Position numbers and translations under genes: made by a program. The notes under the pieces were generated by a model, which had not been told where the DNA came from, made no database searches, and worked only from the letters and a program-made list of their open reading frames with translations. DNA of 64,000 bases from assembly GCA_009788065.1 (NCBI GenBank), contig WQSF01000003.1:1-64000 (forward strand). Direction: 5' to 3'. Each line of letters begins with the position of its first letter. Within the stretch, counting starts at the first letter, position 1. This DNA comes from Treponema sp. GTDB taxonomy: Bacteria; Spirochaetota; Spirochaetia; Treponematales; Breznakiellaceae. Of this stretch, positions 14,457 through 26,929 are shown one piece after another.

Positions 14457-15314
14457 ATGTTTGACGATAATGGTTTTGCATACGCCAAGGCTTGCGGTAT
14501 TATCGGAAAATCATTTCTAGGGAAAAGAGCGTCGTATCTTTCCGGTCTTCATTCATTGAACGATCTTGATAAATTGGTGTTTTCGCAGCATCGCAGGGAT
14601 ATTCCCGACAAGGAGCTTCTCGCTGATTTTAAAAGACGGATAGAAAAAAGAACCCTTGAGAAAATACTTCCCGTAATTAAATCTTATACGCCTTCTGTAA
14701 AACTTTTGGAACTGGCTTTTAAAGGTTATAAATACAGCGAATTGCTTGATACAGGCGCGGCGCTGGACATGGGTTATTACAAGGAGCTGCTGGAAAGTTT
14801 ATCTCAGCTCGACAGTGAAGATCGCGCAACCGCGCAAATGCTAATAGCGGATGAAATATGTATCTGCAACTGTCTTTGGGCTTTGCGTCTGCGCACATAT
14901 TACAACATGCCTGAAGAACAGGTAAAAAAACATTTGCTGGATTTAAGGTTTCACGGAGAAATATTCGAGAAAAAACAGTCGCTTATCGCAAGAGCGAATG
15001 AATCTTTAAATTTTCATCTAGATATACGCCGGCACTGGGACGGCTGGAGATGGGAAAAATTTCTTAATCCTGAAGAGGACGCGAGGCATTGGATAGCGAT
15101 GCCCAGATATTTTCAAAATGCGGCTTGCGCTTACCTTCGCGCTCTTGCGTATCATCAGTTTCACAGTAATCCGTTAACGTTAAGCTCTATTTATTGCTTT
15201 ATAAAACTTATGCAGTACGAGGAAGATATTTTAATAAGTACGGCAGAAACAATAGCCCTCGGCATGGAAAGCTCGTCCGTGTTAAAAACAGCGGAATCTA
15301 AGGGAGAAAACTGA
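14457..15314 (+). CDS. V/A-type ATPase subunit C-like (V-ATPase d/C family)
   Basis: All-helical protein (FAYAKACGIIGKSFLGKR...) next to subunit I; ATG at 14457, in frame with the longer listed ORF. Confidence 0.7.
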   Translation: MFDDNGFAYAKACGIIGKSFLGKRASYLSGLHSLNDLDKLVFSQHRRDIPDKELLADFKRRIEKRTLEKILPVIKSYTPSVKLLELAFKGYKYSELLDTGAALDMGYYKELLESLSQLDSEDRATAQMLIADEICICNCLWALRLRTYYNMPEEQVKKHLLDLRFHGEIFEKKQSLIARANESLNFHLDIRRHWDGWRWEKFLNPEEDARHWIAMPRYFQNAACAYLRALAYHQFHSNPLTLSSIYCFIKLMQYEEDILISTAETIALGMESSSVLKTAESKGEN

Positions 15315-17341
15315 TGCTCTTCCCGCGAAGGATGAAATATGTCGAGTTTGTTGTTTTAAAAAACGACATGGACGCCGTTATCGAATATCTTGGTAAAAAA
15401 TCGGAGATTCAATTTCCTGAAGAAGAAAAATCCGCTGTAAATCAGACTGTCTTGTCTATAAAAAACCTTGTAGAAAGATTAAAAAGCGCTTCGGATTATC
15501 TTAATGACAGCGCTTTCGGGAATGAAAAAGCGGTAAATTCCGGGAATAATATAAATAATCAAATCGAAGAAGATTTTTCTATTCCGTCGGAAACAGAGAA
15601 GACGCTGGCGGAAAATCTTTGTTCGTTTGCGCAGGATTTAAAAGATCGCGAAGAAAGCGCAACTCATGAATTGCAGAGAATTCAGGAATCGATAAATGAA
15701 TTAAAAGTATTCTCCGACATGAACGTGCAATTTTCCGATTTTGAGGATATTTCCTATCTTACACTGCGCTTTGGCCGTCTTGATCCTGACGAGCTAAATA
15801 AACTGCGGAAAAACCTTGGAGACAGGGTTGCGGTAATTCCTCTTAAAGACAACTGTATCCTTGCCGCGACATCCAAAAAAGGCCGCTTCGCTCTTGACGC
15901 GCAATTAAGCCAATTACCCTTTGAGCCTGCTAAAATCCCTGAAATGTGCGGTTCACCAGAAGAGATCATGGCAAACCTGAGAGAGCAGAGCATTGCCGGC
16001 GAAGAAAAATTAAATAAAATTAAAAACGAGAAAGATGCTTTTATTAAAAAATGTATGCCTGATATAAAAAAACTTTTAATATCATGGAGATGCGCGTTAA
16101 CTATCGAAGAGATAAAAGCAAGGTTTAAAGCGACAGAAAGAATGTATAATTTTTCAGGATGGATACCTGCGGATATTGTAAAAAAAACCGTAAAAGATTT
16201 ATCGCAGATAACCGAAGGAAGGATCGCTGTAAACGCCTTCAAACCCTACGAAGTCCCTTCGATCAGAAGCGGTAAAGAAAAAGTGCCGGTCGCGATGAAA
16301 CATTCAGCCTTTGTTAAAGGATTTGAAGGCGTTGTATTTTCCTACGGCGCCCCCATGTACGGAACAATCGATCCGACTGCTTTAGTGGCTTTCTTTTTTA
16401 CCATCATGTTTGGAATTATGTTCGGCGACATGGGGCAGGCTTTTGTTCTGCTTCTTACAGGATTTATAATTAAACACAGCAGTAAAAAACTCGTAAGATT
16501 TAGAAAATTTTCCACGCCTTTAATCTCTGTCGGTATCGCGTCAATGATTATGGGATTTCTTTCTGGTTCTGTTTTTGCAAACGAGACTCTGTTAATAGCG
16601 CCTGCAAGAGCGATAACAGAATTTTTTACAGGCGAACCAAGAGACAGAATTTTACAAATTCTGCCGATGGCTGAACACGGCGGCAGTATCATAAAACTGT
16701 TATATTTCTTCGCTTTTACCGTTGCTATCGGCGTTGTGATAAATTCTCTGGGGTTAATAATAAATATAGTAAACAGGTGTATGTTTAAAAAATATGAACA
16801 GGCGTTTTTCTCAAAGACAGGGCTTGCGGGGCTTTTAATGTTCTGGTACGCCGTTTTTATCGCCGTAAAGCTGATCGCAGGCGGAAAATTTTACAAGCTT
16901 GATATATTGGGGATATGTATACCGCTTTTCTTTATTGTGTTCGGTCATGTAATATGGCGGTTCTTTACGGGGCGGAAATTCCATATGGAAAGCGGTCTTT
17001 TCGCTTTCATGATGGAAGGATTCGTCGAAATCCTTGATACTGTTTCTTCTTATATTTCCAATACCGCAAGTTTTCTGCGCGTTGGAGCATTTGCCCTTGC
17101 GCACGCTGTATTTTCGTTTATCATTTTTTTCTTTACTGACTCTCTTACAGGTTCGGGCACGGCAGGCGCATTTTCAGCCGCTTTAATAATGATTGTAGGA
17201 AATGCTATAATAATAACGCTTGAAGGATTAATCGTAGCGATTCAGGTGATGCGCCTGCAATATTACGAATTCTTTAATAAATTTTTTGTTGAGACAGGCG
17301 TTGAGTTTGCGCCGTTTCGTTTTCAACATAAAGAGTTATAA
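15314..17341 (+). CDS. ntpI: V/A-type ATP synthase subunit I
   Basis: PMYGTIDPTALVAFFFTIMFGIMFGDMGQAFVLLL and SYISNTASFLRVGAFALAHAVFS motifs. Confidence 0.92.
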   Translation: MLFPRRMKYVEFVVLKNDMDAVIEYLGKKSEIQFPEEEKSAVNQTVLSIKNLVERLKSASDYLNDSAFGNEKAVNSGNNINNQIEEDFSIPSETEKTLAENLCSFAQDLKDREESATHELQRIQESINELKVFSDMNVQFSDFEDISYLTLRFGRLDPDELNKLRKNLGDRVAVIPLKDNCILAATSKKGRFALDAQLSQLPFEPAKIPEMCGSPEEIMANLREQSIAGEEKLNKIKNEKDAFIKKCMPDIKKLLISWRCALTIEEIKARFKATERMYNFSGWIPADIVKKTVKDLSQITEGRIAVNAFKPYEVPSIRSGKEKVPVAMKHSAFVKGFEGVVFSYGAPMYGTIDPTALVAFFFTIMFGIMFGDMGQAFVLLLTGFIIKHSSKKLVRFRKFSTPLISVGIASMIMGFLSGSVFANETLLIAPARAITEFFTGEPRDRILQILPMAEHGGSIIKLLYFFAFTVAIGVVINSLGLIINIVNRCMFKKYEQAFFSKTGLAGLLMFWYAVFIAVKLIAGGKFYKLDILGICIPLFFIVFGHVIWRFFTGRKFHMESGLFAFMMEGFVEILDTVSSYISNTASFLRVGAFALAHAVFSFIIFFFTDSLTGSGTAGAFSAALIMIVGNAIIITLEGLIVAIQVMRLQYYEFFNKFFVETGVEFAPFRFQHKEL

Positions 17342-17393
17342 TGAAACTTTGTTTCATTTTTGATTATTATGCGGGGCAGGTTTGCCGCGCTAA

Positions 17394-17714
17394 ATGGAGG
17401 TTACAATGAAAAAAATAATACTGCTGTTGTGCGTTATGGTGATTAGCGGCGCGGGCGGCGCTGTTCTGTTTGCGCAGGATCACGCGTCAGATGCGCAGGC
17501 TTCTGCGGATTCGATAAAAGCGGTTGCCGCCGGTATCGCTGTCGGGCTTTCATGTATCGCTGGCGGTATTGCTGTAGGGCGGATAGGAGCGGCAGCGATG
17601 GGCGCGATGAGCGAGAACTCGGACCTTTTCGGAAAAGCTCTTCCGTTAGTGGGGCTTGCCGAAGGTATTTGCCTTTGGGGTTTTCTTGTAGCTCTGTTAA
17701 TTTTATTCCTGTAA
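17394..17714 (+). CDS. ntpK: V/A-type ATP synthase subunit K (proteolipid, c-ring)
   Basis: Signal-like N-terminus, one hairpin: AAGIAVGLSCIAGGIAVGRIGAAAMGAMSEN...LPLVGLAEGICLWGFLVALLILF. Confidence 0.9.
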   Translation: MEVTMKKIILLLCVMVISGAGGAVLFAQDHASDAQASADSIKAVAAGIAVGLSCIAGGIAVGRIGAAAMGAMSENSDLFGKALPLVGLAEGICLWGFLVALLILFL

Positions 17715-19015: not shown

Positions 19016-19489
19016 ATGACAGCCTCAGCGGCCATTAAGTCTTTACTGGAAAACAGGATATTCCTTTCCAGCGTTTCCAGCCTTATTCTCGCTCAAATTT
19101 TAAAGATGGTTTTTTATCTGCTTACAACAAAAAAACGCAAGAAATGGGACGCAATCGAAACGATGATATGGCGTACAGGCGGAATGCCGTCAAGCCATTC
19201 GGCGGTAGTGTGCGCTCTTGCGGCGTCGGTCGGCATTTACGAAGGAATCGATTCAAATATTTTTATTTTCTGTCTTGTTTTTGCCCTGATAGTGCTGAGA
19301 GACGCTGTAGGAGTAAGGCGCGCCGCGGGTTTACAGGCGAGAGCGCTTAACAATCTCGGAAAGCAATCCGCCAAATTAACAGGGGTGGAATTTCATTCAG
19401 TAAAGGAAATACAGGGTCATACTACTTTAGAAGTTCTTGTCGGATCACTTTTAGGTATTTTAATTGCGTTCTGCTTCTATTTGTTTTAG
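19016..19489 (+). CDS. Divergent PAP2 family protein (DUF212)
   Basis: GGMPSSHSAVVCALA, DAVGVRRAAGLQA, GHTTLEVLVGSLLG. Confidence 0.9.
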   Translation: MTASAAIKSLLENRIFLSSVSSLILAQILKMVFYLLTTKKRKKWDAIETMIWRTGGMPSSHSAVVCALAASVGIYEGIDSNIFIFCLVFALIVLRDAVGVRRAAGLQARALNNLGKQSAKLTGVEFHSVKEIQGHTTLEVLVGSLLGILIAFCFYLF

Positions 19490-19497
19490 GTTTTCGC

Positions 19498-20964
19498 ATG
19501 TCCTTTTTTAAATCCGTTTTACTTGCAAGTCTTATCTCGCTTTTAGCGGCAATGGCTCTTCTTTTCCTTGGCTCCGCTATGGGTTATGAAGAATTTCGCG
19601 GCGGATACGCGGTGCTTACGACAGAATCTTCCATAAGCGACAGGGACATCCGCTCGCTTCTTGAATCAAGCGAATATTTCTTCGGCGGCTCTCCTGTTTC
19701 AGAATCATCGCAGTGGGTTTTATTGGACGAATTTGATTTAATAAAAAGAATACCGCTGGATCAATATTCGTCAAGGATATTTCCGTTCGATCCGCGCAAT
19801 GACGGTTACGCGGATAAGTTACGCGAAGTTTTTATAAAGGATAATAAACGTTTTATTTATATTCCTCTTGTCGCGGGTAACTGGAACTCAAGCCTGCTCG
19901 ATAAAAAATTTGACGAACTTCTTGGGGACATTCCTTATTCTGTAGAATATTACGGAATCGGAAGGCCGTTAGCGCTTTTCTTTATCGTTTATGCCGCATC
20001 TTGTGTATGCCTTCTCCTTTTATGTTATCTGAAAAGAAAGACCCACAGAAGTATTGTAAATATTATCCCCATGATACCGGTTCTTTCCTCGCTTGGTTTT
20101 TTTGGAGCTGCGGGGATAGGAACGGCGGCAATTCTTTACGCTCTTTTTATAATGCTTAAGGAACCGTTGAATGAACTTATTAATCCGCCGCCTCTAAGAG
20201 AGAATGCCCTAAAATTTAAAACCATATATAAAGAGGTAATTATACCATACAGATTTTACTGGCTTTTTCTTCCCGTATTCGCGGGAGCGCTTGCGATTTT
20301 AGTTATTTTTTCCAAACTGCATCTTTTATTCCTGATCGCTGTGTCGACAGCTTCGTTCGCCGTATTTTTCTTTTCTTTAAAAATTGTGACGTTTTCGGGG
20401 GTTGAGCATAGAAGGTTTAATCCGTTAATAATTGTAAGACAGCGTTTTCCCGAATTTATTTTTCCCGTTTATATTCTGCCGTTTGCGATAGGAGCTGTTT
20501 TTACGCTGTTCTTTATGCCGTATATGTCAGGCAATTACGATTATAATAAAAAATTCGATGTCTTTATAACCGAGCAGGATTATCTGGAACACATAACTTA
20601 TCAGTCGTCTTTTTCAACGCATCAGATGGGTACGTTTTCTGCGGCTTTTCCCGAATATTATATCGACAAGGACGGTCTTCCTTCGATAGACAGAACGAAA
20701 GTAACTCAATCTGTAAGGATAAGTGATTATCCGCCGTTCCCGTTAAGGCACTTGATGGAATTTTTTAACAATGTGAATAACGGAGTTAAAACAGATACTA
20801 CGGGAGGTTCCGCCGGTGTCTCTGAAAAATGGTCATTGCTGGTTTTACTCCTGTTCCTGTTTCCCGGTATAATCGTCGTAAAAAATGACGAAAATACCGG
20901 AAAAATCAATTTTAGCAGAATAAAACGGTTTTCGGGAACGCCGCATCAGACGGGTCTTAACTGA
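19498..20964 (+). CDS. Conserved hypothetical multi-TM membrane protein
   Basis: Long ORF with coding-like composition, N-terminal TM, periplasmic-like domain, several TM helices. Confidence 0.5.
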   Translation: MSFFKSVLLASLISLLAAMALLFLGSAMGYEEFRGGYAVLTTESSISDRDIRSLLESSEYFFGGSPVSESSQWVLLDEFDLIKRIPLDQYSSRIFPFDPRNDGYADKLREVFIKDNKRFIYIPLVAGNWNSSLLDKKFDELLGDIPYSVEYYGIGRPLALFFIVYAASCVCLLLLCYLKRKTHRSIVNIIPMIPVLSSLGFFGAAGIGTAAILYALFIMLKEPLNELINPPPLRENALKFKTIYKEVIIPYRFYWLFLPVFAGALAILVIFSKLHLLFLIAVSTASFAVFFFSLKIVTFSGVEHRRFNPLIIVRQRFPEFIFPVYILPFAIGAVFTLFFMPYMSGNYDYNKKFDVFITEQDYLEHITYQSSFSTHQMGTFSAAFPEYYIDKDGLPSIDRTKVTQSVRISDYPPFPLRHLMEFFNNVNNGVKTDTTGGSAGVSEKWSLLVLLLFLFPGIIVVKNDENTGKINFSRIKRFSGTPHQTGLN

Positions 20965-21025: not shown

Positions 21026-22342
21026 ATGAAGAAATATTCTTTTCCGAGGGGAGGGTTGCCGTATAATGACCCGACGGCGCCGGATAAATCCGCCGCTGTA
21101 AACGCTTTTTTACCGGCTGTATCCGTTATTCCGCTCGGAAATAAAGCAAGACAGATTTCTCCCATTGTCGCCATCGGCGATAATGTGCGCGAAGGCATGC
21201 TGGTAGGCAAGGCGTCCTCGGAAGACACCGCTAACGCGCATGCTACAGTTCCCGGCAAAGTTGTAAAAAAAGTAACATGGAAAGACAGAGATGATATAAG
21301 TTACGACGCTCTTGTTATAAAAATGGAAGGAGCGTTTGAGAAACTTGGCAAGAAAGAAGATGTCTTAATCTGGAGCGGGCTTAACAGTTATGATATTCAA
21401 AAAATAATTTTAGAGTGCGGAATTGTAGAAATGGACAATAAAGAAAGGCCGCTTTCTAAATTAATTTCCGCCGCCAGAAAAGTAGAAAAATTGACGCTCG
21501 TAGTACGATGTGTTTTTGACGATTCATGGCTGGTCGCCGATTACGCGCTATGCCGCGACAGGATAAATGCCGTAATCGAAGGCGCGGCGATTGTCGCCAA
21601 AGCCTGCCAGAAAGTTACGCAGGTTATTTTTGCCGTCTCTCACCGGGAAGAAGATTTGGGAGAAATGCTGATGGCGGGAGCCGCAGATATTTTTTCAAAC
21701 GCGCAGCCGGAAATAGTAACGTCTCTTGTTTACACAAGCTCGCGTTATCCTCAGCATAATTCAAGAGAATTGGAACTGGCAATTCGATCTTACGAAAAAA
21801 GAGAAGGAGCAAGTTTAGGTTCTCTTTTGATTCTTGGGCCCGCGGTTCTTGCCGCGGTTTTCGACGCTGTTGTTCATAAAAGACCGGTTTTGGATCGGTA
21901 TGTCGCGGTAGGCGGCTCCGCGGTAAAAAAACCGCAGATAATGAAAGTAAGAATCGGCACCAGAATCGGCGATGTGATAGAACAATGCGGAGGTTTTATC
22001 GAATCACCGTTCAGAATATTAATCGGCTCTCCTTTGTCGGGTAGAGAAGTAATGTATCTGGATGAACCTGTAGGAAAAACCTGTTACGCGATTGTAGCAA
22101 TGGCGAAATCACAGGCGGCTATTCCCGGTCAGCAGAACTGCATAAACTGCGGCGAGTGCAGGGCAGTGTGCCCGATAGGGCTTGATCCTCAAAACACATA
22201 TAAAAAAATAAGAACGCTTGGGATTGGATACGCGGAGAACACAGGCTGTCATGGATGCGGATGCTGTAAAATAGTCTGTCCGTCTGCTCTTCCTTTATCG
22301 GAAATAATTCTGGAAAAGAATCAGGAGGATATGAGTGCCTGA
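21026..22342 (+). CDS. RnfC-like electron transport protein
   Basis: RnfC-like body plus two [4Fe-4S] motifs CINCGECRAVCPIG and CHGCGCCKIVCPSA. Confidence 0.85.
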   Translation: MKKYSFPRGGLPYNDPTAPDKSAAVNAFLPAVSVIPLGNKARQISPIVAIGDNVREGMLVGKASSEDTANAHATVPGKVVKKVTWKDRDDISYDALVIKMEGAFEKLGKKEDVLIWSGLNSYDIQKIILECGIVEMDNKERPLSKLISAARKVEKLTLVVRCVFDDSWLVADYALCRDRINAVIEGAAIVAKACQKVTQVIFAVSHREEDLGEMLMAGAADIFSNAQPEIVTSLVYTSSRYPQHNSRELELAIRSYEKREGASLGSLLILGPAVLAAVFDAVVHKRPVLDRYVAVGGSAVKKPQIMKVRIGTRIGDVIEQCGGFIESPFRILIGSPLSGREVMYLDEPVGKTCYAIVAMAKSQAAIPGQQNCINCGECRAVCPIGLDPQNTYKKIRTLGIGYAENTGCHGCGCCKIVCPSALPLSEIILEKNQEDMSA

Positions 22343-23375
22343 GCAAAAAATGATCCATGTTTATAAACCTCAAATTAATATTTCATATCCAAGCTCAGGA
22401 AGAATGTGGCTTATTTGCATCTGCGCGTTCCTTTGCGTATTGCAGTCCGCTCTCTTTGACGGAGGAAAATCTTTTGTTATCGCCGTCACTGCGCTTCTTA
22501 CCGCGGTTTTATTGGAATTTCTAATAACATGGCGTAAACACGGAGGAGCAAAAATAAAAGACGGCAGCGCCGCCGCTACGGCGATGATCCTGTCAATAAT
22601 TCTGCCAAACCAGATTCATCCCGTTTATGTTTTTTTTGGAACCGCGTTTGCGATTATAGTTGTAAAATACACTTTCGGCGGACTCGGATCGAATTGGCTT
22701 AATCCTGCTCTGGGCGGCTGGCTTTTTATCAGGTTTTCATGGCCTGTAAGTTTTGCAAATGCCATTCCCGAGATTCCTTCGATTTCAGAAATGGTAATGG
22801 CGCCTGACGTAAGTCCGCTGGACAGTTCTATTACAGAATTTTTTAATAATTCTGTTTTTTCCATAGCGGGCGTTCAACTTCCTTCAGGTTATATTAATCT
22901 TCTGTTTAACAGCAGCGAGTCAACAATTACAGACAGAGGATTGTTCGCTCTTTTGATCGGTACGATTATTATTACCGCGATTGGAATTAACCGGGGATGG
23001 GTGCCTTTAATTTTTCTTACGGTTTACGGTTTTCTAATTCGGTTTGCAGGTGACGTTTCGGGTTTGTACTGGAACGGAGATTTACTGTACGGTATTTTTT
23101 CAGGCGGTACAATAGCTGCGGCTTTTATTCTTGCGGCGGAACCTGCAAGCGGCGCGAAGTTAAAACCCGGTATTTTATTTACCGTTATTCTTGGAGCGGT
23201 TCTTTCATGGTTTTTCCGTTACAAGTGCATGGAATATTTCGGCTGTTTCATAGCTCTTGCGTTAATTAACTGTATAACGCCTGTTATCCGCCTTATCGAA
23301 GAAAAAATATTTTTTCCACGGAAAAATGAAAGCAATGCCAAAAGAGCCTCGGTAGTTCAGGAGACTCTGTTATGA
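22335..23375 (+). CDS. RnfD/NqrB-like membrane subunit
   Basis: IKDGSAAATAMILSIILPNQIHPVYVFFGTAFAIIVVKYTFGGLGSNWLNPALGGWLFIRFSWP typical of RnfD; overlaps the RnfC stop. Confidence 0.85.
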   Translation: MPEQKMIHVYKPQINISYPSSGRMWLICICAFLCVLQSALFDGGKSFVIAVTALLTAVLLEFLITWRKHGGAKIKDGSAAATAMILSIILPNQIHPVYVFFGTAFAIIVVKYTFGGLGSNWLNPALGGWLFIRFSWPVSFANAIPEIPSISEMVMAPDVSPLDSSITEFFNNSVFSIAGVQLPSGYINLLFNSSESTITDRGLFALLIGTIIITAIGINRGWVPLIFLTVYGFLIRFAGDVSGLYWNGDLLYGIFSGGTIAAAFILAAEPASGAKLKPGILFTVILGAVLSWFFRYKCMEYFGCFIALALINCITPVIRLIEEKIFFPRKNESNAKRASVVQETLL

Positions 23376-23815
23376 AAGATAAATTAATAATGTTGGGATG
23401 GATAATAGGATTACTACTGTTAATCTCTGTCTTATGGGTTGTGACACAGCCTCTGCAGTCCATGTATTTATTAAGAACGGTGAACAGTGTCCTTTCCAAT
23501 AATAATGATTCGCGCAGGGTATCTGCGTATATACAGCCAAAAACGGGTAATACGAATCTTTTTGGATATTGGTATTCAATACGCGCCTCGCAGGATAAAA
23601 TGTTTGTGTTTGCCGCTTTTCAGGACGGTATACTCATTCCGCTTGGCGCGTTTGTTTCGCATGACTGTATCGTAAAAGAAATTATTCCGCTAAGCGCTCA
23701 TGCGGTTCAGGTTTTTGATTCATTCCCAAAGAGTATTCTGAATATTTACACGGCAAGAATCGAAGAAGCGGCGCATGATGTTACTGCGGCATTAACGGAG
23801 GCGGGAGGCAGATGA
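23372..23815 (+). CDS. RnfG-like (highly divergent) subunit
   Basis: Position between RnfD- and RnfE-like genes, one N-terminal TM plus extracytoplasmic domain; 4-bp overlaps both sides; no canonical FMN motif. Confidence 0.5.
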   Translation: MKDKLIMLGWIIGLLLLISVLWVVTQPLQSMYLLRTVNSVLSNNNDSRRVSAYIQPKTGNTNLFGYWYSIRASQDKMFVFAAFQDGILIPLGAFVSHDCIVKEIIPLSAHAVQVFDSFPKSILNIYTARIEEAAHDVTAALTEAGGR

Positions 23816-24465
23816 GTTTAAGCAGACAACATTCATTTTGGGGTTCTCTCTCTCCGCTTGGCGGACTAACGGGTGCCGGTATTTTGATAATGGCGTCCGC
23901 GCGCCTTTCTTGGGCGATTACTGTCGCCGTAGGCTTATTTTGGGTTTACGGGCTTACCGCGTTTACATTCACATTTTTTATAACAGGCGCAAGAAGAAAA
24001 ATATTCCCTGAAAACGGAAGGGTTTCTATCTATACATGTTTTTCGGCGTTTTACGGAAGCCTTTATATTTTCATGTTTTGGATTGTATGCCCGTTTGCGG
24101 CGCTGGAAGTTTTTATGATCCTTTTATTTGTTCCGATATTCTGCACAGGTTCAGGGATTGTTCAGCAAATGCAGTCGCACATACAAAACGCGCATACCGA
24201 TATATTTGAAAATGTATCCGATTCAATCTCTCAAGCCGCCTCCCTTGCCGGACTGCTTGTTGTTTTTTCCATTATCCGCGAACCGTTATCATTTTGCTCG
24301 CTGTCGTTTCCGGGAACTTATCAGGGGATGGTGACAATTGTGTATTTTAAAGCTGGCGCGTTTTTCCCGATAGGCATATTCGCGGCTTCTTCAGGAGCGC
24401 TTTTACTGCTTGGGTATTTTATCTGTTTGTATCAATATTGGAAAGTAAATAGAGGGGAGCATTGA
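23812..24465 (+). CDS. RnfE-like membrane subunit (divergent)
   Basis: Six-TM-like protein in RnfE position; start overlaps the upstream stop. Confidence 0.6.
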   Translation: MSLSRQHSFWGSLSPLGGLTGAGILIMASARLSWAITVAVGLFWVYGLTAFTFTFFITGARRKIFPENGRVSIYTCFSAFYGSLYIFMFWIVCPFAALEVFMILLFVPIFCTGSGIVQQMQSHIQNAHTDIFENVSDSISQAASLAGLLVVFSIIREPLSFCSLSFPGTYQGMVTIVYFKAGAFFPIGIFAASSGALLLLGYFICLYQYWKVNRGEH

Positions 24466-25052
24466 TGATTCAAATATCGTTCTATCTTCTTTTAATCTAC
24501 TCAAGTCTTACGATGAATCTGGTATTGCAATGCGGATTGGGACTTAAAGGTATCGCTGAATCAAAAAACAGTCTTAATATGCCGGCTTTCATTAAACTAG
24601 GTCTCGTTTTTTCTTCCATAATCTTAATATGGCTCTTTTTTACAAAAATAGTAATTTCGCTGTTTTCAGGTCTATATATTTATGTAATTTTATTTCCTGT
24701 CAGCGTAATTGTGTATGACTGTTTTGAATATTTAATATTTAAATATGTGATAAAACGCGACAGAGAAGAAGAAACATTTGTAACTTCTCCCGGCAGAACT
24801 ACAGCCGTCGCGGTGTTTATATGCATGAATATGGCAAGCGGATTTTTTGATGTTCTGGTTTTAGCGTTTGGTTTTTCATCCGGTGTTTTTATCATCAATT
24901 TAATAATCCGAGAAATTCGAAAACGCGCGGCTCTGGAAGCAGTTCCGGTTTTCCTTCGCGGGAAACCTCTGGTTCTTATCGCTATGGGAATGCTGTCTCT
25001 TATTTTTACCGCCGCCTCATTATTATTTTTTAGGATGATCGGCGCAGGGTGA
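24462..25052 (+). CDS. RnfA-like membrane subunit (divergent)
   Basis: N-terminal MNLVLQCGLGL resembles RnfA NNFVL.QFLGL; RnfA position in the operon. Confidence 0.6.
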   Translation: MMIQISFYLLLIYSSLTMNLVLQCGLGLKGIAESKNSLNMPAFIKLGLVFSSIILIWLFFTKIVISLFSGLYIYVILFPVSVIVYDCFEYLIFKYVIKRDREEETFVTSPGRTTAVAVFICMNMASGFFDVLVLAFGFSSGVFIINLIIREIRKRAALEAVPVFLRGKPLVLIAMGMLSLIFTAASLLFFRMIGAG

Positions 25053-26929
25053 AAACTGTAAATAGAATTAACCTTATTCTGGGTTCGCATGCTCATGTAC
25101 CCTCAGGAGCGCCTGAGAGCGAATTTGAATTTGTATACGAAACTAAAATACGTCCTTTTGTTTCCAATCTGTACCGTTATTCGAATATTCAGGCGGTTTT
25201 GCATTATTCAGGCGTTTTACTTTACTGGGTGGAAAGAACGCATCCCGAATCTTTTATGCTTATAGAAGATATGCTGTCCAGAAAACAAGCGGAAATTATT
25301 GGCGGAGGATTTTACGAACCTATTTTCCCGCTCATTTCCTTGCAGGACAGAATCGGGCAGATTGAACTTATGACAACGTATCTTAGAAAACATTTCGGAA
25401 AACGTCCTACCGGCTGCTGGGTGCCCGGTATGGCATGGGAGCAAAATCTTGCAGTCGCTCTTTGTACAAGCGACATGAATTACACTTTTCTTTCGCAGGA
25501 TCAATTTGAAAAGGCGGGACTGGAAGGATCGGATCTTTTTAAACCGTGTTTAAGCGAAGATCAGGGAAAGCTTGTCGCGATTTTTCCGGTTTCGCGTTTT
25601 GTGGAAAAGGAACTTTCGCGAAAAAGTTTTTCGCAGGTGTTTGTCGACATGGAAAATAAATTTAAAGAAATCTGTCCAAACTGCAAGTCGGACAAAATCA
25701 TAAGCGTATTTCCCGAATCTGTTTCTTCCTCGCCTGAAGAAGCTCCGGATACCGCATGGAACCGTTTTTTTGAAGAAATCTCGCTGTCGGATAATATCGT
25801 AAGCTCTACATTGCCTTTTAAAATATTAAAAACATATAAAATATTCAAAAAAGCGAGTTTTCCCAATTCCACGTCTCTCGAAAATGATTTTTCCCCGCGC
25901 AGATTTTTAATTGATAATGCCGATGTAAGCGGCATATATTCAAAAATGATATTTACAAACCTTTTAATAAACCAGTTAAAGGGTGATAAAGCGCGAAAAC
26001 TTAACGCAAGGGAAGAGATGTGGAAGGCGCAGGATTCGTGCTTTTTTTCTGCCGGGAACGAACAATACAGAAACGAACTTAGAAAGTCGGCGTATAGCTC
26101 TCTTTTAAGAGCTGAAAAACTGTCGCGCGAAAAGGGATTGTTCGTGCCGTCATTAATTCAATACGATTTCAATTTTGACGGTAAAAAAGAATTTATTTTT
26201 CAGGACGAAAAAATTAACTGCTACATTCAGCATACGGGAGCTGGTATTTTTGAACTGGACTATCTTCCGAAGGAATGGAATTATCTTGACTGCGGAACAT
26301 CAAGCGAACCAGATAAGACGAGGCTTGCAGGTACTGACAATTTAAATAAACGTATCGCGTTTGCTGATATGCTTTTTCCCGCAAATGAAAAATTTGACAA
26401 TTTGATTAACATTCTGCCGGATAACGGACGCTTTTGCTATCATGAACAATACGAAGAAGTAACACAGGATAAAAAAGGAAAATCCTGTTTTAAACTTCCT
26501 GTACGCGCGGATAATGTTCCTTTCGGGTATATTGAAATTAATAAATGCTATCTGCTTAAAAAAGACAATTTATCCGTTTCATATCAGCTTGTAAATAAAG
26601 ATAAAGAAACCGCGAGCTTCCTGTTTGTTCCCGAGATTGATTTTTCTTTCGCCGGAGTCGGTGATGAATTTGTCCGTTTTTATACGGTTGACTCAGGCGG
26701 AAAAGATATATCGATAGATCGTCTTTTGGATTCAAATAACCTTAAAATACTTGATGTTAAAAACGAAGTGCAGATACTTCTTTCTTCGGTTAATAATTTT
26801 ACAGGCTGTCTTTTTCCGGTATTTAAATACGATATGTATCAGGCGACGCGCATATTACCAGTCTTTTCTGTTACTCTCGATTCAGGCGTTTCATGGTCTA
26901 ACGAATTTACATTAAAATTCTCGCATTAG
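25049..26929 (+). CDS. Glycoside hydrolase family 57-like protein (DUF1925/DUF1926-type C-terminus), possibly catalytically inactive
   Basis: ILGSHAHVPSG...YSGVLLYWVERTHPES...AEIIGGGFYEPIFPLISLQDRIGQI...GCWVPGMAWEQNL; GTG start overlapping the RnfA-like stop. Confidence 0.75.
   Translation: MKTVNRINLILGSHAHVPSGAPESEFEFVYETKIRPFVSNLYRYSNIQAVLHYSGVLLYWVERTHPESFMLIEDMLSRKQAEIIGGGFYEPIFPLISLQDRIGQIELMTTYLRKHFGKRPTGCWVPGMAWEQNLAVALCTSDMNYTFLSQDQFEKAGLEGSDLFKPCLSEDQGKLVAIFPVSRFVEKELSRKSFSQVFVDMENKFKEICPNCKSDKIISVFPESVSSSPEEAPDTAWNRFFEEISLSDNIVSSTLPFKILKTYKIFKKASFPNSTSLENDFSPRRFLIDNADVSGIYSKMIFTNLLINQLKGDKARKLNAREEMWKAQDSCFFSAGNEQYRNELRKSAYSSLLRAEKLSREKGLFVPSLIQYDFNFDGKKEFIFQDEKINCYIQHTGAGIFELDYLPKEWNYLDCGTSSEPDKTRLAGTDNLNKRIAFADMLFPANEKFDNLINILPDNGRFCYHEQYEEVTQDKKGKSCFKLPVRADNVPFGYIEINKCYLLKKDNLSVSYQLVNKDKETASFLFVPEIDFSFAGVGDEFVRFYTVDSGGKDISIDRLLDSNNLKILDVKNEVQILLSSVNNFTGCLFPVFKYDMYQATRILPVFSVTLDSGVSWSNEFTLKFSH

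Follow-up and report, generated by a model that had tools for sequence, protein, structure and literature searches.

Whether a gene cluster that still has the layout of an Rnf complex can act as a ferredoxin:NAD+ (nicotinamide adenine dinucleotide) pump, once RnfB and most of the residues binding its cofactors are gone, is the question raised by five genes of a Treponema sp. genome (assembly GCA_009788065.1). They occupy positions 21026-25052 on the plus strand of the window, by which we mean the whole stretch analysed here, i.e. nucleotides 1 to 64,000 of contig WQSF01000003.1. In this article we propose that these genes specify a paralogue of Rnf serving a new role, in which the [4Fe-4S] clusters of RnfC would exchange electrons with a soluble carrier and would drive or gate the membrane part; the probability of this reading is put at roughly 60%. 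The initial annotation of the DNA had already suggested an Rnf derivative with another function, and the suggestion is well supported: the same losses recur in a clade which spans the order, is inherited vertically and is under purifying selection.

The canonical C-D-G-E-A order, the coupling of the genes and the lack of a following rnfB, all noted in the initial annotation, agree with the coordinates. The RnfC-like (438 residues, 21026-22342), RnfD-like (346 residues, 22335-23375), RnfG-position (23372-23815), RnfE-like (23812-24465) and RnfA-like (24462-25052) genes overlap by 8, 4, 4 and 4 bp, respectively. No rnfB was found after rnfA in the window cluster; a co-operonic GH57 glucanotransferase-like gene (25049-26929, plus strand; PF03065, 3e-24) is directly next and overlaps rnfA by 4 bp. 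Pfam, NCBIfam and the solved Rnf structures leave no doubt about the family membership of RnfC and RnfD: the former matched TIGR01945 (1.1e-55), PF10531, PF13375 and Fer4, with 7zc6_C as the best PDB match (9e-47), and the latter PF03116 (2.6e-45) and PDB entry 9eri_D (8e-13), both scores lying under the curated rnfC and rnfD cut-offs (TIGR01945 included). The homology of the two remaining membrane proteins is detectable by profile only, with E values of 4e-7 (RnfE) and 1.7e-8 (RnfA) in hhalign comparisons against canonical profiles from related genomes, and 0.005 and 5e-4 against NCBIfam.

In the genus of the window a close orthologue of the window RnfD is present in 34 of the 37 genomes, the other three being at most 74% complete. 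A DUF212 gene, found in 127 of the order's 131 genomes, served as synteny anchor. With its help the block Rlu; DUF212 - membrane protein - C-D-G-E-A-(B) - GH57 - (MetG) was recognized throughout the order, whose families are designated here f1 to f5 (f1 is the family of the window). The Rnf genes are missing from the block in six f4 genomes (L134-L139), where Rlu, DUF212 and GH57 remain, and also at two f1 loci (L087, L092). The tree of RnfC and RnfD separates all syntenic clusters, as a single clade, from canonical Rnf (support 1.0), and within this clade f1 and f3 are sisters (support 1.0). Inheritance of the syntenic clusters has been vertical, at the same chromosomal locus in the whole order. 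In one single-contig genome (G152, locus L117) RnfC is split into two frames, by a real break or a sequencing error.

The fate of the cofactor sites was followed in 100 syntenic clusters, window included. Both [4Fe-4S] motifs of the window RnfC (Cys372/375/378/382 and Cys408/411/414/418; 22139-22279, plus strand, as are all sites given within these genes) are retained, as first read by eye, and the eight cysteines are invariant in 100/100 clusters. A loss which had escaped the initial annotation concerns the NADH/flavin mononucleotide (FMN) site of the same subunit: the loop GLGGAGFPT is replaced by EMDNKERPL (21428-21454), i.e. GxGGAGFP has become EMDNKERP, and the ECEP motif is lost too. This loop is lost in 100/100 syntenic clusters and kept in 9/9 canonical ones. 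In the Rnf complex of A. woodii FMN is bound to RnfD T156 and RnfG T185, riboflavin is held by RnfD N123 and D249, and the [2Fe-2S] cluster is ligated by RnfA C25/C113 and RnfE C25/C108; removal of the RnfG-FMN, of riboflavin or of the ligands of the [2Fe-2S] or B8 cluster abolished the activity (PMC11889175). In RnfD the SGATPL loop carrying the covalent-FMN threonine is deleted across the genus of the window (22770-22823, a segment which includes PDVSPLD). It had been proposed that the FMN motif itself reads PDVSPLD; the loss of the site stands, but the counterpart of PDVSPLD in the alignment is a loop further downstream, which reads VSALDTSVTNVLN in relatives. At the riboflavin positions, Asn123 (22701-22703), equivalent to A. 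woodii N123, is kept in 77/79 f1 and f3 clusters, and Glu269 (23139-23141) stands at the position of D249, where Asp or Glu is found in all f1 clusters, this residue being frequently lost in f3.

The intramembrane [2Fe-2S] site has been dismantled in the window, as only one of the four RnfA/RnfE cysteines could be aligned. The reported loss of the RnfE GLCPL cysteine was confirmed by the alignment (the first ligand is missing), and the single cysteine aligned with the second RnfE ligand is not conserved in the family. RnfA has no ligand cysteine under either alignment, although the pairing of the NCA motif with NMA, as given in the initial annotation, is uncertain. Shifted ligands were considered and rejected, no RnfE or RnfA cysteine being conserved across the family. 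Similarly, the G-position protein lacks the (S/T)GA(T/S)xT motif, as had been stated, but its identity as RnfG rests on position alone: no Pfam or NCBIfam match, and none to FMN_bind, was found, and the hhalign probability against RnfG was 2.7%. Its AlphaFold2 model (predicted local distance difference test score, pLDDT, 92.6) consists of one N-terminal helix, a five-stranded sheet and C-terminal helices, and has no significant match among PDB folds; the protein is homologous to the f3 gene at the same position (hhalign 1.5e-8).

Comparison of the families reveals the order of these losses. The basal f2 member is nearly complete, with GATPL in RnfD, GATVT and PF04205 in RnfG, the paired RnfE cysteines and RnfB. 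The Thr/Ser of RnfD persists in f2, in 5/7 f4 and 13/13 f5 clusters and in 0/79 of f1 and f3 together; the RnfE pair in f2, 4/7 f4, 2/12 f5 and one f1 alignment; rnfB in f2, 7/7 f4, 5/13 f5, 25/40 f3 and 1/39 f1. Since the genes were picked and aligned automatically, all these counts may be wrong for individual genomes, but the loss pattern of the families is independent of any single one. RnfB is complete in f4 and in part of f5, and N-terminally reduced in f3; in L060, L108, L109, L115 and other f3 clusters the N-terminal Fe-S domain is gone and mainly the soluble ferredoxin-like part is left. By parsimony the RnfC cysteines show 0 changes on the tree and the NADH loop 1, while the RnfD threonine, the RnfE pair and RnfB require 2, 5 and 8 changes, respectively; the centres other than the RnfC clusters and the NADH/FMN loop were lost stepwise and repeatedly. 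One f4 cluster (L040, genome G039) has RnfB and the RnfA/RnfE cysteines and has lost the covalent-FMN sites, including the RnfD threonine. Neither an ApbE nor an FMN_bind match was found in that genome, and the cluster is possibly an Rnf without covalent flavin.

The ratio of nonsynonymous to synonymous substitution rates (dN/dS) in close pairs lay mostly at about 0.05-0.45 in each of the genes and also in GH57 (divergent f3 pairs, with dS near saturation, were left out, and rows with L098, where the RnfC stretch is very short, were ignored); the genes of the cluster are therefore working genes. The GH57 protein has taken a parallel course. Its catalytic nucleophile, Glu123 of the T. litoralis enzyme (1k1w), is replaced by Gly127 in the window according to the alignment to 1k1w, is lost in 34/36 f1 and 35/39 f3 proteins, and is retained in most of f4 and f5. 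This suggests either a functional linkage or a shared relaxation; with f1 and f3 being sister families, a single event may account for much of the parallel loss.

The known electron path of Rnf is U-shaped and leads from ferredoxin through RnfB, [2Fe-2S], FMN-G, FMN-D, riboflavin, the RnfC clusters and FMN-C to NAD+ (PMC12174285, PMC11889175). In the window cluster both ends of this path are interrupted, and so is its middle. The redox centres remaining in the window would be the two RnfC [4Fe-4S] clusters and probably the cytoplasmic-side riboflavin pocket of RnfD, therefore a U-shaped transfer from ferredoxin to NAD+ is impossible. The history may be reconstructed as follows. The RnfC NADH/FMN site, missing in every member examined, would have been lost first; the covalent FMN of RnfD and the intramembrane [2Fe-2S] site would have disappeared in the common ancestor of f1 and f3, with further independent losses elsewhere; and RnfB, first cut down to a soluble core resembling ferredoxin, would have disappeared thereafter. 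In the resulting complex a soluble low-potential carrier such as ferredoxin or flavodoxin would most probably trade electrons with the clusters of RnfC, whose redox state would drive or gate the membrane part made of RnfD, RnfA and RnfE, which have transporter-like folds. Of the whole account, this last step is the weakest.

An orthologous cluster is present in a genome (G047) which probably is that of T. pallidum. Its RnfD lies at 173,916-174,704; a variant of tp0151 has been located at 174,174 in published T. pallidum genomes (PMC7162541) and tp0151 has been named rnfD (PMC11371664), from which we infer that G047 matches T. pallidum and that its cluster RnfD is tp0151. The RnfC cysteines are kept here, and the other determinants are gone, except that RnfD has the Asn and an acidic residue where riboflavin would be held. 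A genome-wide search of G047 for canonical Rnf or RnfB gave no PF02508 and no PF04060 match; one ApbE and two FMN_bind regions, the latter outside the cluster, were detected. The stripped cluster is the sole Rnf-like locus found in this genome.

That the cluster is still a working Rnf pump, supplied with RnfB, RnfG or cofactors by canonical operons or relying on shifted ligands, is very improbable. In favour of it, the search of the window's genome for a second, canonical rnf operon and for ApbE yielded a full C-D-G-E-A-B operon on contig C42, the end of G followed by E-A-B with intact motifs on contig C31 (which ends inside the operon), and one ApbE. An rnfB elsewhere in the genome, which had been named as a point to check, is thus present, but it belongs to these two canonical operons and not to the cluster studied here. 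G047, however, keeps its cluster without any canonical Rnf, no member has kept the NADH loop, and family-wide conservation of RnfE or RnfA cysteines is nil. The G047 genome was also the reason for setting aside the idea that the cluster is an accessory to canonical Rnf. Decaying pseudogenes can be dismissed with still more confidence. The loss of many catalytic residues, the absence of Rnf genes from the locus in the six f4 and two f1 genomes and the split RnfC of G152 would fit decay, but the frames are open in about 100 genomes, the cluster has been retained in a reduced genome of 1.14 Mb, and the dN/dS values in close pairs refute this explanation for most lineages.

Two further explanations accept the losses and differ in the role of the RnfC clusters. 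A redox sensor or regulator, in which redox state, iron or oxygen would be sensed by the [4Fe-4S] pair, with the membrane subunits serving only to anchor or signal and without net transport or electron flow, is possible, though clearly less probable than the role proposed here. The RnfC clusters are indeed the only invariant redox feature, the loss of the linked GH57 nucleophile in f1 and f3 fits binding over catalysis, and the Rnf homologue of E. coli, Rsx, is a SoxR-reducing system; purifying selection on all membrane subunits, however, exceeds the needs of an anchor, and no regulator gene is linked to the cluster. Less probable again is a redox-independent transporter built from RnfD, RnfA and RnfE with purely structural RnfC clusters. 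RnfD is related to urea and ammonium transporters (PMC12174285), and the top fold matches of the protein encoded upstream are RND transporters, non-significant as they are; yet both sets of cysteines are fully conserved while the other centres vanish, which argues for a redox or Fe-S role, and nothing points to a substrate. Certain observations nevertheless weigh against a carrier-driven Rnf paralogue as well: cofactors, complex formation and activity are deduced here from the genes, the G subunit is identified by its position only, the GH57 and upstream membrane proteins are partners that the proposal leaves without explanation, and f3 is often devoid of the acidic riboflavin ligand of RnfD, because of which a role for riboflavin is not family-wide.

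Compared with the Rnf complexes of A. woodii, C. tetanomorphum and A. vinelandii, of which structures are available, the window cluster shares the C-D-G-E-A order, homologous RnfC, D, E and A subunits, the two RnfC [4Fe-4S] clusters and the RnfD N123 position; it differs in lacking RnfB, the RnfC NADH/FMN site, the covalent-FMN threonines of RnfD and G and the [2Fe-2S] cysteine set, in a G subunit unrecognizable as RnfG, and in its translational coupling to a GH57 gene. Nqr has been proposed to be a duplicate of the Rnf operon that lost RnfB, NqrA having lost the RnfC clusters (PMC4014512). The window cluster would likewise be an Rnf duplicate without RnfB, but Na+-NQR kept the membrane cofactors and added NqrF, whereas here the RnfC clusters were kept and the membrane cofactors lost. 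No NqrF was found in the window cluster, and its RnfC with eight cysteines fits rnfC models far better than nqrA. The window-type complex is a derivation separate from Nqr, in which the opposite half was kept. Meheust et al. 2021 (PMC8238504) described NQR/RNF-like systems in which RnfD is fused to NqrF and the partners are flavinylated; these are similar in having a partial Rnf/Nqr set that implies a single electron leg, but differ since the window cluster has no PF00175 or FMN_bind domain match. No paper describing this complex was found in open-access text.

As to the neighbourhood of the cluster, the upstream membrane protein (19498-20964, plus strand) belongs to the syntenic block of most genomes and could not be assigned to a family; its AlphaFold2 model (pLDDT 77.8) gave no significant fold match, and in its top matches it resembles half of an RND transporter. 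The preceding DUF212 (divergent PAP2) gene (19016-19489, plus strand; PF02681, 6e-44) is usually single-copy. Genes named by eye as V-type ATPase-like subunits (15314-17714) lie upstream of the block, and another contig of the genome (C46, L002) encodes proteins which, also by eye, resemble subunits of the Wood-Ljungdahl corrinoid Fe-S protein.

The findings bear on the energetics of T. pallidum, as published models relying on an Rnf pump that includes tp0151 (PMC7512555, PMC10194888, PMC11371664) are confronted with a locus without the needed residues. The literature model assumes a 'noncanonical RNF-type' pump using flavodoxin and NAD+ (PMC7512555). By synteny and sequence the G047 cluster with tp0151 is orthologous to the locus treated here, but the model of the Norgard group is that of a flavodoxin:NAD+ ion pump, and the G047 sequences lack RnfB and the residues it requires. 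The stripped complex of T. pallidum is probably not the energy pump that has been assumed. More broadly, nature offers here a dense series of stages in which the sequence of cofactor losses from a respiratory ion pump can be followed; it is useful for asking about the role of each Rnf part, and the losses predict iron in RnfC, no covalent flavin and no NADH oxidation. We consider it an even chance that these clusters constitute a distinct Rnf-derived class without a transmembrane electron path, a mirror image of Nqr and the only Rnf-like complex of T. pallidum; if this is true, the Rnf-based energy model of the syphilis agent would need to be replaced.

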